A stretch of DNA of 64,000 nt from Nisaea sp. (GTDB lineage Bacteria; Pseudomonadota; Alphaproteobacteria; Thalassobaculales; Thalassobaculaceae), in the NCBI RefSeq assembly GCF_017640745.1, contig NZ_JAEPQA010000023.1:1-64000 (forward strand), read 5' to 3'. Positions 31,889 through 35,075 of the stretch are shown here, in pieces. Position numbers and translations under genes: made by a program. Every line of letters starts with the position of its first letter. The stretch's first letter is position 1. The notes beneath the pieces were generated by a model. It made no database searches. It had not been told where the DNA came from and saw only the letters and a list, made by a program, of their open reading frames with translations.

Positions 31889-33126
31889 GCAAGGCCCAGG
31901 CAAGGCCGGGCCGCTACCCGGCGAACGACTACCAGACAGGCGCGAAGCTGCCGCTCGACGGCGTCCGGGTGCTCGACCTTTCCCGCCTCGTCGCGGGCAA
32001 TATGGTCACCCACGTGCTTGCCGATTACGGCGCCGAAGTGATCAAGCTGGAGCGTCCGGGCTTCGGCGACGATCTGCGCAACTGGCGCACCGAGGGCGTC
32101 GCTACCCACTGGAAGGTGTTCTGCCGCAACAAGAAGAGCGTCACCCTCGATCTCCGCAAGGAGGAAGGCAAGGCGCTGTTCCTGCAGCTGGTGGAGACCG
32201 CCGACGCGGTGGTCGAGAATTTCAAGCCGGGCACGCTGGAGGAATGGGGGCTCGGGCCGGATGTCCTGCAGGCCCGCAATCCGAAACTGACGCTGGTCCG
32301 CGTCTCCGGCTGGGGCCAGACCGGGCCCTGGAAGCACAAGCCAGGCTTCGGTTCGTTGGTCGAGGCGATGAGCGGCTTCGCGGCCCTCAACGGGTTCGGC
32401 GACCGGCCGCCGGTGCTGCCGCCGCTGGCCCTCGCCGACATGATCGCCGGGCTCTACGGCGCCTTCGCCGTGATGGTCGCGCTGCGAAATGTCGAGGTCT
32501 CGGGCGGGAAGGGGCAGAGCATCGATCTCTCTCTCTTCGAGCCGATCCACGCCATTCTCGGCCCGGAGGCGGCGAACTATGCCCTCTCCGGCAAGGTGCC
32601 GCCGCGCACCGGCAGCCGTTCCAACCTTACCTCGCCGCGCAATACCTACCGCTGCAAGGATGGCAAATACGTCGCGCTCTCGGGCTCGATACAGGCGATG
32701 GCCGAGCGGCTCTTCCGGACCATAGGCCGGCCTGACCTGATCGACGATCCGCGCTTCAAGACGAACTCGGACCGGGTGAAGAACAACGACATCCTCGATC
32801 CGATCGTCGCCGAGTATATGGCCGAACGGACCCAGGCGGAGTGTCTGGAGATCTTCGAGAAGGCCGGCGTCACGGTCGGTCCGGTCGCCGACGTCGCGCA
32901 GCTCGCGGACGACGACTACATGGAGGGCCGCGGCGTGGTCGAGGCCTTCCCGGACCCGGATATCGGCACCCTGCCGATGCATGCGGTGATCCCGCGGCTT
33001 TCCGACACGCCGGGCGCGGTGCGCAGCCCGGCGCCGGAACTGGGTGAGCACAATGCGGAAATCTGGGGCGGGCTCGGCATCGACGCGGCCGAGCAGGCAC
33101 GTCTCGTGAAAGAGGGAGTGATCTGA
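31885..33126 (+). CDS. CaiB/BaiF family III CoA-transferase
   Basis: A 413-residue family III CoA-transferase with LDGVRVLDLSRLVAGNM and YGAEVIKLERPGFGDDLR at the N-terminus, VRVSGWGQTGPW, then LALADMIAGLYGAFAVMVAL with the conserved Asp that carries the acyl group, and IDLSLFEPI. It moves CoA between carboxylic acids through an enzyme-bound anhydride. The directly following CitE-type lyase suggests it activates a hydroxy or branched diacid (such as citramalate or malate) for C-C cleavage. It overlaps both neighbours (ATGA and TGATG), so the three genes are one translational unit. Confidence 0.9.
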   Translation: MSKAQARPGRYPANDYQTGAKLPLDGVRVLDLSRLVAGNMVTHVLADYGAEVIKLERPGFGDDLRNWRTEGVATHWKVFCRNKKSVTLDLRKEEGKALFLQLVETADAVVENFKPGTLEEWGLGPDVLQARNPKLTLVRVSGWGQTGPWKHKPGFGSLVEAMSGFAALNGFGDRPPVLPPLALADMIAGLYGAFAVMVALRNVEVSGGKGQSIDLSLFEPIHAILGPEAANYALSGKVPPRTGSRSNLTSPRNTYRCKDGKYVALSGSIQAMAERLFRTIGRPDLIDDPRFKTNSDRVKNNDILDPIVAEYMAERTQAECLEIFEKAGVTVGPVADVAQLADDDYMEGRGVVEAFPDPDIGTLPMHAVIPRLSDTPGAVRSPAPELGEHNAEIWGGLGIDAAEQARLVKEGVI

Positions 33127-34010
33127 TGGCCGGTAACCTCCCACTCTGGCGTTCGCTGCTCTATGTACCGGTGACCAATGAGCGATTCGTCGAGAAGGCG
33201 GCCGCGCGCGGCGCCGACGCGATCAAGCTCGATCTCGAGGACAGCATCCCACCGGCCGAGAAACCGGCTGCCCGGAAGGCGCTGCGCGACGCGGCGCAGG
33301 TAATCTCCAATGCCGGCACCGAAGTGCTGGTGCGGATCAACCGCCCCTGGCGCCTCGCCGTGCAGGATCTGGAGGCCGCTGTCTGGCCGGAGGTCTCCGG
33401 TCTCTGCCTGCCGAAACTGGAAAGCGCCGATCATTTGGCCTTCCTCGACGAGACCGTGGAAGAGCTGGAGCGCGAGCGAGGCCTTGAGCCCGGCTCCATT
33501 TGCTTCATGGGTCTGATCGAGACCCCGCGCGGCCTCAACAACGTGCGGGAGATCGCCAAGGCGAGCCCGCGTCTGAAGGGCCTTTCGCTCGGCCAGGAGG
33601 ATTATTCCGCCGCCCTCGGCATGCCGAGCCTCGGGCCGGGAGACCTCACCGAGGACATGCGCCTTGTCCAGCGCGCCGCCCGCGAGGCCGGCATCCTGCC
33701 GCTCGGTTTCGCCGGCTCGATCGCCGAGATCACCGACATGGAGGCGTTCCGCGCCAGCGCCGAACGCGCCCGCGCCCTCGGCATGGAGGGCGCCTCCTGC
33801 GTCCATCCGGCCCAGGTTCCGATCCTGAACGCGGTCTTCTCCCCGACGGAGGAAGAAGTCGAGACGGCGGAGGCGATGGTCGCGGCCTACGACGCGGCGA
33901 TGGCCGACGGTCTCGGCGCGGTCAGCTTCCGCGGCAAGATGATCGACGTGCCCGTCGTGGAGCGGGCGCGAAGGGCTCTGGTGCTGCGGGATCGGATCGC
34001 GGGGCGGTAA
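33126..34010 (+). CDS. CitE/HpcH family CoA-ester lyase
   Basis: A 294-residue TIM-barrel protein of the citrate lyase beta-subunit-like family: RSLLYVPVTNERFVEKAA, DAIKLDLEDSIPPAEK, a metal-binding Glu in GLIETPRGLNN and Asp in LSLGQEDYSAALG, and CVHPAQVPILNAVFSP near the C-terminus. No alpha or gamma citrate-lyase subunits are nearby, so it is a stand-alone CoA-ester lyase (malyl-CoA, citramalyl-CoA or similar) releasing acetyl-CoA plus a 2-oxo acid. It is translated right after the CoA-transferase. The repeat/GIY-YIG unit begins nine bases after its stop. Confidence 0.9.
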   Translation: MAGNLPLWRSLLYVPVTNERFVEKAAARGADAIKLDLEDSIPPAEKPAARKALRDAAQVISNAGTEVLVRINRPWRLAVQDLEAAVWPEVSGLCLPKLESADHLAFLDETVEELERERGLEPGSICFMGLIETPRGLNNVREIAKASPRLKGLSLGQEDYSAALGMPSLGPGDLTEDMRLVQRAAREAGILPLGFAGSIAEITDMEAFRASAERARALGMEGASCVHPAQVPILNAVFSPTEEEVETAEAMVAAYDAAMADGLGAVSFRGKMIDVPVVERARRALVLRDRIAGR

Positions 34011-34018
34011 CAAGAGTC

Positions 34019-34105
34019 CGTCATCCCGGACTTGATCCGGGACCTTTCGATAAGAGATCTCGCCATTTTCTGCGGAAGGTCCCGGCTCTTCGGCCGGGAT
34101 GACGA
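34019..34105 (+). repeat. 87-bp palindromic element, left copy
   Basis: The unit contains two hairpins: CCCGGA-CTTGA-TCCGGG near the left end and CCCGGC-TCTTCG-GCCGGG near the right end, with ends CGTCATC and GATGACG that also pair. Its reverse complement recurs at 34463-34549. The outer 32 bases (34019-34050) are an exact inverted match to 34518-34549. It lies directly downstream of the CitE-type gene. Confidence 0.85.
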
Positions 34106-34125
34106 TGGTGGGGAGGCCTGGCTCG

Positions 34126-34410
34126 CTAGAAGAGCTCCCCGAACCGGTCGCGCCAATCCGGATTATGCCGTTCGATCAATTCGAATTTCCACTGCCGCCG
34201 CCAGCGCTTCACCTGATGCTCGCGCCTTATGGCGCTTTCCATAGTCTCATGGGGCTCGAAATAGACCAGGTTATTGACGTTGTAGCATTTGGTGAAGCCG
34301 GCAATTGCTCCGCTCTTGTGCTGCGCTATGCGCGTTCTGAGATCGGAAGTAACTCCGGTGTAGAGAACGCCCTGACGCTTGCTGGCGAGGATGTAGACAA
34401 ACGGCTGCAT
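34126..34410 (-). CDS. Small GIY-YIG endonuclease domain protein
   Basis: A 94-residue protein that is just one GIY-YIG nuclease domain: VYILASKRQGVLYTGVTSDL (Y6 and Y17 of the motif, YTG instead of YIG), R25/R27 with H31 in LRTRIAQH, and the metal-binding Glu64 in AIRREHQVKRW. It resembles the short stand-alone UPF0213/YhbQ-like members. An AGGAGG site precedes the ATG at 34410; the longer open frame to 34536 would only translate the repeat. The gene is enclosed by two inverted copies of an 87-bp palindromic element, which suggests a mobile unit. Activity is unknown. Confidence 0.88.
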   Translation of the reverse strand: MQPFVYILASKRQGVLYTGVTSDLRTRIAQHKSGAIAGFTKCYNVNNLVYFEPHETMESAIRREHQVKRWRRQWKFELIERHNPDWRDRFGELF

Positions 34411-34462
34411 AACCTCCTGATGGGCGGCGCAGGCAGTTTTTCTTTCCCAAAATAAAAAACAG

Positions 34463-34549
34463 TCGTCATCCCGGCCAACGCGCCGGGACCTTGTGCGGAA
34501 AAGGGCGTAGCACGTCGTCGAAAGGTCCCGGATCAAGTCCGGGATGACG
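34463..34549 (-). repeat. 87-bp palindromic element, right copy (inverted)
   Basis: This is the reverse-complement copy of the element at 34019-34105. The outer 32 bases are identical to it; the inner hairpin differs in the loop (AACGC) and a few bases. Together the copies bracket the GIY-YIG gene. It starts just upstream of that gene's ribosome binding site and likely contains or borders its promoter. Confidence 0.85.
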
Positions 34550-34578
34550 AACTTCCTTGGATGGATGAAGAAGGCGCT

Positions 34579-34941
34579 TTACCGCCCCAGTAACTGCCCG
34601 ATCAGGTCGTAGACCATGTAGGAGATTTCGCTCTCGAGCGGCAGAGACAGCATCCCCATGGCGCCGTACCCGAGCAGCCAGGGCATCAGGTAGAAGCGGA
34701 TCATGAAGAAGAACCAGGCGACATAGAGCGGGTGCAGCCAGGGCAGCAGGAAGCCCGGCGTCACCGGCGCGAAGAGGCGGAGCAGCGGGTTCGTCACGCG
34801 GACGAAGAAGCGCATGAAGAAGAAGTTCGAATCCTCCGGCAGGAAGATCGACATCGCGAAGCGGCCAAAGAGGGTCCACATCACCGTGCCGAGCAGGTAG
34901 TCGATCACCAGGACCCAGAGGGGAAAGGCGCTTGCATCCAT
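34579..34941 (-). CDS. Small membrane protein, YggT-like
   Basis: A 120-residue protein with about three hydrophobic segments (8-32, 64-85, 87-100) and a central MRFFVRVTNPLLRLFAPVTP stretch. The latter recalls the RxxNPLLR-type motif of YggT-family membrane proteins, though the match is loose. The function is unknown. It lies downstream of the symporter operon on the same strand but beyond its strong terminator, so it is probably transcribed separately. Confidence 0.7.
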   Translation of the reverse strand: MDASAFPLWVLVIDYLLGTVMWTLFGRFAMSIFLPEDSNFFFMRFFVRVTNPLLRLFAPVTPGFLLPWLHPLYVAWFFFMIRFYLMPWLLGYGAMGMLSLPLESEISYMVYDLIGQLLGR

Positions 34942-34985
34942 CGGGGCGTATCCTCCCGCCGCTTATTCTTTTGATTGGGCATAAA

Positions 34986-35019
34986 AAATCCGGGACGAAG
35001 CTTGGCCCGTCCCGGATTT
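34986..35019 (-). terminator. Strong intrinsic terminator of the symporter operon
   Basis: On the minus strand a perfect 12-bp stem (AAATCCGGGACG with CGTCCCGGATTT) and a 10-base loop are followed by TTTTTTAT. It stands 57 bases after the symporter stop codon. Confidence 0.88.
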
Positions 35020-35075
35020 CTCTTCAAGCCTGTCCGGGACGGATATGACGCCGTCCCGGGTGTGAGAGGTTTGTC

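Follow-up and report, generated by a model that had tools for sequence, protein, structure and literature searches.

A GIY-YIG nuclease gene recurrently enclosed by CGTC-tagged REP dimers as a candidate mobiliser of the repeats

The window analysed here is a stretch of 64,000 nucleotides from Nisaea sp. (contig NZ_JAEPQA010000023.1, assembly GCF_017640745.1), in which a unit of 531 bp sits between two convergent genes, a gene of the HpcH/HpaI aldolase family on the left (33126-34010, + strand) and, on the right, a small gene whose YGGT match is below the threshold (34579-34941, - strand). The features of the unit are collected in Table 1. An initial annotation made from the sequence had described a single gene for a 94-residue GIY-YIG nuclease between two inverted 87-bp elements, and this gene was confirmed by a match to PF01541 (E 1.4e-17). 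The exact 32-bp terminal inverted repeat of the unit was found as described (34019-34050 and 34518-34549) and forms part of outer inverted arms of 36 nt that are 97% complementary (34015-34050 and 34518-34553), while the inner arms of 45 nt are 84% complementary (34061-34105 and 34463-34507). Each flanking element consists of two REP hairpins arranged as a head-to-head dimer, which agrees with the two hairpins per inverted element seen earlier; the REP pattern gave four matches in the window and none in any of 100 shuffles. For each dimer as single-stranded DNA the folding also gives a single long hairpin (z -6.0 and -5.2), and the same CTTGA-loop REP is outermost at both ends of the unit with its tag pointing outward. 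To call the two elements near-identical was too strong, because the dimers of 86-87 bp agree at only 71 of 87 positions (82%). The ribosome binding site had been described as strong, and AGGAGG is indeed a strong Shine-Dalgarno match, but its distance of 2 nt from the ATG is shorter than usual. G+C-rich inverted repeats were also noticed by eye in the gap that separates the small YGGT-like gene from the next ORF (34980-35070), and these gave no match to the CGTC-REP pattern.

Table 1. Features of the unit and their coordinates in the window.
Feature	Position	Strand	Basis
Whole unit: REP dimer, GIY-YIG gene, inverted REP dimer	34019..34549	.	Inverted arms; missing from the orthologous site in 4/4 congeners
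Left CGTC-REP head-to-head dimer (REPIN-like)	34019..34105	+	Inverted arms, REP matches, ssDNA folding
Left outer REP, CGTC tag outward, CTTGA-type loop	34019..34044	+	REP pattern match
Left inner REP of the left dimer, tag facing the gene	34078..34104	-	REP pattern match
94-aa Slx1-like GIY-YIG nuclease gene	34126..34410	-	ORF, Pfam, structure model, fold matches
Shine-Dalgarno-like AGGAGG, 2 nt upstream of the ATG	34413..34418	-	Read directly
Right CGTC-REP dimer, inverted against the left dimer	34464..34549	-	Inverted arms, REP matches, ssDNA folding
Right inner REP	34464..34490	+	REP pattern match
Right outer REP, sequence equal to the left outer REP, tag outward	34524..34549	-	REP pattern match

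PF01541 was the sole Pfam match of the 94-aa protein at E 0.001, and NCBIfam gave no family at the same threshold. In an alignment of 125 proteins the catalytic residues Tyr, Tyr, Arg, His and Glu (Y2, Y13, R23, H27 and E60) are retained at 97-100%, and a C-terminal signature K-W-R-W-K ... N-P-W-D is common to these proteins. An Asn at position 79 is conserved at 99% in the same set and may or may not equal the C-terminal Asn that the Slx1 group lacks according to a table in PMC1564403. The structure model of the protein (pLDDT 94; of the 80 loci of the collection introduced below, 57 entered the structure alignment) matches Slx1 (7cq3) over 93 residues with 3.0 A and a Z of 7.3, which is middling by the tool's own scale. 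It also matches the folds of UPF0213, UvrC and I-TevI, Slx1 and UPF0213 being the nearest, and on the sequence level UPF0213 (1zg2) is matched with E 1.7e-7. Slx1 acts on branched DNA, as the titles of the structure entries say, and this fits a hairpin or cruciform substrate for the 94-aa enzyme. With Slx1, the non-eukaryotic Slx1-like GIY-YIG group described in the available part of PMC1564403 and UPF0213 (1zg2) the protein shares the GIY-YIG fold over 94 aa and the catalytic residues, but unlike Slx1 it has no RING domain; in the same available part of PMC1564403 the term "palindrom" gave 0 matches and no "repeat" passage deals with REPs. A GIY-YIG enzyme tied to a mobile element is likewise found in GIY-YIG homing endonucleases and Penelope-like retroelements, from which the window's protein differs in that its 94 aa include neither a NUMOD domain nor a reverse transcriptase, that no intron is involved and that its gene is flanked by its own putative substrate. 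The gene of the unit is free-standing and located in intergenic sites, and its phage relatives are distant (below 60% identity in 15/15 records).

Judged by their sequence, the repeats of the window fit the superfamily of CGTC-tagged REPs that Di Nocera et al. described in 2013 (PMC3733652), which according to the accessible parts of that paper is characterised by a CGTC or TGTC tag, a stem of 8-9 bp starting with AT, a loop of 4-5 nt, mostly CCA tails and an arrangement in head-to-head dimers, occurs mainly in Alphaproteobacteria and is reported there without a dedicated transposase. The window shares the tag, which is unpaired in all four matches, the AT-starting stem, the short loop and the head-to-head dimers, the loop being CTTGA in the outer REPs and longer in the inner ones. 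In contrast to the usual CCA its four REPs, which read GGGACCTT, end with the tail CTT, and in contrast to the repeats of PMC3733652, where no transposase gene is reported, they enclose a GIY-YIG gene. The initial annotation had proposed to count the copies of the element, and in the window's own genome we found 29 matches to the first 25 nt of the left outer REP with up to 3 mismatches (control 0) and 93 matches to the general CGTC-REP pattern (reversed control 0). This dispersal in many copies and the bare head-to-head dimers at orthologous sites described below are as in CGTC-tagged REPs.

In order to compare the surroundings of the gene, loci were collected by protein similarity alone, namely the best 80 of at least 573 matches in a scan of GTDB contigs and 30 from 41 genomes. 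Of these 110 loci 106 were usable, as two were cut by contig ends (L048, L053) and two had a flank of less than 200 nt (L099, L112); two loci identical over 3279 bp (L036 and L064) were both kept and the window itself (L034) is included. To score the flanks, the 300 nt to the left of each gene were matched in inverted orientation and without gaps to the 300 nt to its right, and the best match had to score at least 18. This was reached at 67/106 GIY-YIG loci compared with 2/929 shifted positions in the same loci, 13/527 other ORFs in the same loci (short ORFs 3/168) and 0/30 loci of uvrC, a gene that also encodes a GIY-YIG domain (3 of the 30 matches, L220-L222, end inside the gene, one flank there being coding). 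Chance or a general abundance of REPs as the cause of the flanks is therefore ruled out by shifted positions, neighbouring genes and uvrC. A separate sample of the class gave inverted flanks in 13/21 loci (21 of 24 further loci were usable), so that the REP/RAYT-like layout recognised in the initial annotation recurs in both collections with repeats that fit CGTC REPs; 39 of the 106 loci stay below the threshold.

A motif of the GTCAT/ATGAC type, as in CGTCATTCCCGCGAAAGCGGGAATCCAG, is present in 62 of the 67 matches that reached the threshold. Close to the gene, at up to 100 nt, this motif was counted 153 times in 216 locus-bins of 100 nt, compared with 75 times in the 5245 bins that lie beyond 1 kb. 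A hairpin search that imposed the AT start, partly imposed the tag and set no condition for the tail found a CCA tail in 150 of 174 flank hairpins; with the tag partly imposed 111 of the 174 carry CGTC and 52 TGTC, and with the AT start imposed 154 have loops of 4 or 5 nt. The density of hairpins is 2.28 per kb in the flanks versus 0.07 per kb at a distance of at least 600 nt. Strict REP hairpins occur on both sides in 53 of 127 loci, on one side in 23 and on neither in 51. Where both sides have them, the tag nearest to the gene faces away from it on the left in 42/53 and on the right in 44/53 loci, and both outermost tags face outward in only 33/53. Judged by the record titles, Pseudomonadota, Nitrospirota, Myxococcota, Planctomycetota and Cyanobacteriota are represented among the 73 loci that have a REP hairpin on one or both sides, but single phylum labels need caution because many loci come from MAGs. 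Two plasmid-labelled records of 4.9 and 2.2 Mb (NZ_AP026896.1 and NZ_CP119140.1) are probably mislabelled chromosomes. In a record of Neisseria gonorrhoeae the gene lies among CGTC-1-type repeats and the nearest tags point inward; these repeats correspond to dRS3 of Neisseria, which together with some repeats of Rickettsia is assigned to the CGTC REPs in the part of PMC3733652 at hand.

On the level of whole genomes the gene was found at E 1e-12 in 98 of 290 genomes of the class, with up to 10 matches in one of them (G120), and at least one hit of the CGTC-REP pattern in 80 of the 290, the number of hits being as high as 330 in the genome G282. With at least 5 REP hits required, both were present in 27 genomes, REPs only in 11, the gene only in 71, a count probably inflated because the REP pattern is narrow, and neither in 181, which corresponds to an association with a Fisher p of 5.6e-7 that is not corrected for phylogeny. 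Ten of the 11 REP-only genomes have a single GIY-YIG match each, located in a uvrC-sized frame and in no case standalone, and the eleventh (G224) has a GIY-YIG frame of 106 aa. A strict rule that a REP-rich genome must hold the gene thus fails in 10 of 11 genomes and REPs can therefore exist without it, just as REPs are described to occur without RAYTs in the sections seen of PMC3733652. In the congener G002 no relative was found at E 1e-8, although this genome has 12 REPs of the same type as those in the window, and the window's own genome has only 2 genes of the window's kind against its 93 pattern hits. The initial annotation had named an element that is ubiquitous and independent of the gene as the outcome that would speak against its reading, and this does not apply in the form given: REPs do outnumber the gene and occur in some genomes without it, but most gene loci have flanking repeats.

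Repeat and protein distances are correlated (Mantel rho 0.50, 0/999 permutations as high), while across phyla the co-variation is not significant (rho 0.13, 45/499 permutations); L036 was dropped for the Mantel test and the protein tree. On this tree the loop class requires 13 changes compared with a shuffled mean of 17.8 (0/300 as low), which is a phylogenetic signal only.

Site occupancy is polymorphic in the five Nisaea genomes compared, the window's genome (G000) and four congeners (G001-G004), of which G003 has a stretch of 3279 bp that is identical in Nisaea nitritireducens. The window's unit is present in one of the five, and at its site (site C) the gene is absent from all four congeners, so that simple vertical fixation at the window locus is ruled out. 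A nuclease gene fixed at this locus without flanking elements, the second outcome that the initial annotation had named against itself, is contradicted by the same absence and by the flanks of most loci. At site C, G003 and G002 have REP dimers but no gene, G001 has a different stretch of ~0.9 kb without a REP between hpcH and the small downstream gene (L146), and G004 has one palindrome of 29 nt, each half of which equals the outer half of one end of the unit. From its sequence this palindrome could have arisen by a deletion between the 7-nt repeats TCCCGGA of two outer REPs; it is no proof of a unit loss, because such a deletion is possible from a unit as well as from a bare dimer. Site A carries units in G004 and G001 and bare dimers of another REP type in G000, G003 and G002. 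Site B has units in G000 and G001, which are collinear between these two, a bare dimer of another REP type in G004 and another gene without a REP in G002, G003 being left out of the count. Altogether 7 of the 9 resolved gene-free sites hold a REP or a REP dimer and 2 hold none, compared with an expectation of a few per cent of gaps as estimated from 93 hits and ~4,000 genes; we give no p-value because the sites share ancestry. In G004 and G001 the whole unit at site A has opposite orientations relative to its flanks, for which ordinary recombination between the long inverted ends could be an alternative cause, and a bare dimer of G002 equals the reverse complement of the G003 dimer at 85/86 nt, compared with 67/88 columns in the same orientation.

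Outside the genus, Azospirillum lipoferum 4B (L240) has a unit (REP dimer, gene, REP dimer) in the gap of ~0.6 kb between sufB and sufC. This gap is shorter and contains neither the gene nor a GTCAT/ATGAC motif in all six relatives compared out of 11 other Azospirillum records listed, the annotated gap being 55-129 nt in four of them. The gap of Shinella sp. PSBB067 (L250) holds a relative with 48% identity and another REP type on both sides, and the presence of units in the same gap of distant genera may be either coincidence or target preference. Nisaea and Azospirillum thus show what the initial annotation had suggested to look for, namely full units in different places and sites that lack the gene; no target-site duplication was seen at the compared sites (A-C and sufB-sufC). 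Upstream of a full unit, Sinorhizobium meliloti Ak57 has another one that is shortened (L241:2167-2340): it matches the full unit over 45 nt at its start and 130 nt at its end, lacks ~210 nt of the interior and keeps only the C-terminal end of the gene. Such a MITE-like derivative by internal deletion is a possible route from a unit to a bare REP pair. At the site of the Ak57 unit Sinorhizobium sp. K101 has REP-like sequences and lacks the gene.

We suggest that the unit is the CGTC-REP counterpart of a REPtron, in which the nuclease would process CGTC-REP hairpins and thereby drive the spread of REP dimers and of its own unit, and give this reading a probability of about 0.6. By analogy to RAYTs and GTAG-tagged hairpins the nuclease would most likely recognise CGTC/TGTC-tagged hairpins or cruciforms and may cut at or near the tag; host repair by annealing, template switching or recombination with another REP copy might then restore, invert, delete or copy the repeat or the unit. 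The unit with its gene would be the autonomous form of low copy number, and the REP dimers would be small derivatives that are not autonomous. To our knowledge GIY-YIG enzymes hydrolyse DNA, and we know of no strand-transfer chemistry for them. This point, the loci below the threshold, the ten REP-rich genomes without a standalone GIY-YIG gene, the co-variation across phyla that is not significant and the lack of target-site duplications at the compared sites speak against the model. The template for this model is the cleavage of the GTAG motif in single-stranded REPs by RAYTs, as cited in the part of PMC3733652 available. Both systems have a single nuclease gene between REPs or REP dimers, a low copy number of this gene, many bare REP dimers and REP families without the gene. 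In contrast, the enzyme here is a GIY-YIG hydrolase and not an HUH/Y1 tyrosine transposase, the two being unrelated, the tag is CGTC and not GTAG, and a covalent intermediate would not be expected for a GIY-YIG enzyme.

The excess of REPs over genes in the window's genome and their presence in genomes without the gene would also follow if another enzyme or plain recombination spread the CGTC REPs and the GIY-YIG gene was trapped between dimers and rides along with them, and insertion of IS elements into REPs is the topic of PMC1525189, as far as that record goes. Against such a passenger speaks that one family is enclosed repeatedly, as seen from the comparison with other genes and uvrC, and that IS200-type genes are never flanked by CGTC units according to the portion of PMC3733652 consulted, so we consider it unlikely. 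The REPs at 7 of the 9 gene-free congener sites would also fit a homing-type selfish gene, the nuclease cutting REP-occupied sites and the unit being copied in by repair with no part in the spread of bare REPs; also the resident REP type at sites A and B differs from that of the unit, which would fit the replacement of a dimer already present there. The sufB-sufC site, which is free of CGTC REPs in the 6/6 Azospirillum relatives compared, and the two gene-free Nisaea sites without a REP argue against homing, which is to us quite improbable.

Very improbable is a domesticated host nuclease without mobility, meaning a repair or cruciform-resolving enzyme kept near REPs that act as transcript regulators or terminators or as a housekeeping substrate. 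The predicted Slx1-like fold, the collinear unit of site B and the frequent location of CGTC and GTAG REPs next to gene 3' ends, as described in the passages available of PMC3733652, would suit such an enzyme. The repeats are however present on both sides, the gene is patchily distributed in the class with up to 10 matches in one genome, its positions change in Nisaea and Azospirillum, and some gene copies contain stops.

The RAYT-like mobiliser, as already proposed in the initial annotation, is thus the best reading so far, and the GIY-YIG enzyme is the leading candidate for spreading CGTC REPs because the package of gene and repeats recurs in distant bacteria at changing positions. Rather tentatively, with somewhat less than even odds, we go further and propose a new autonomous bacterial mobile element of ~0.5 kb, whose 94-residue GIY-YIG nuclease would, without a transposase, cut CGTC-REP hairpins, use host repair to move itself and both generate and spread the dimers that occur in many bacterial genomes, and would thus be the missing mobiliser. 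Among the literature matches listed, with bioRxiv and most subscription journals outside the search, we found no link between GIY-YIG genes and REPs.

The new point is that the flanking repeats are CGTC REPs, a superfamily that was described in 2013 as seemingly without a dedicated enzyme, as far as the accessible text of PMC3733652 goes, and the gene is therefore a candidate for this missing enzyme. A recurrent and specific GIY-YIG partner offers a testable answer to the question of the origin and spread of CGTC REPs. If the reading is true, the REP life style would have evolved with two unrelated nucleases, and a function would be suggested for widespread small GIY-YIG genes, of which at least 573 relatives were found in the GTDB contig scan.
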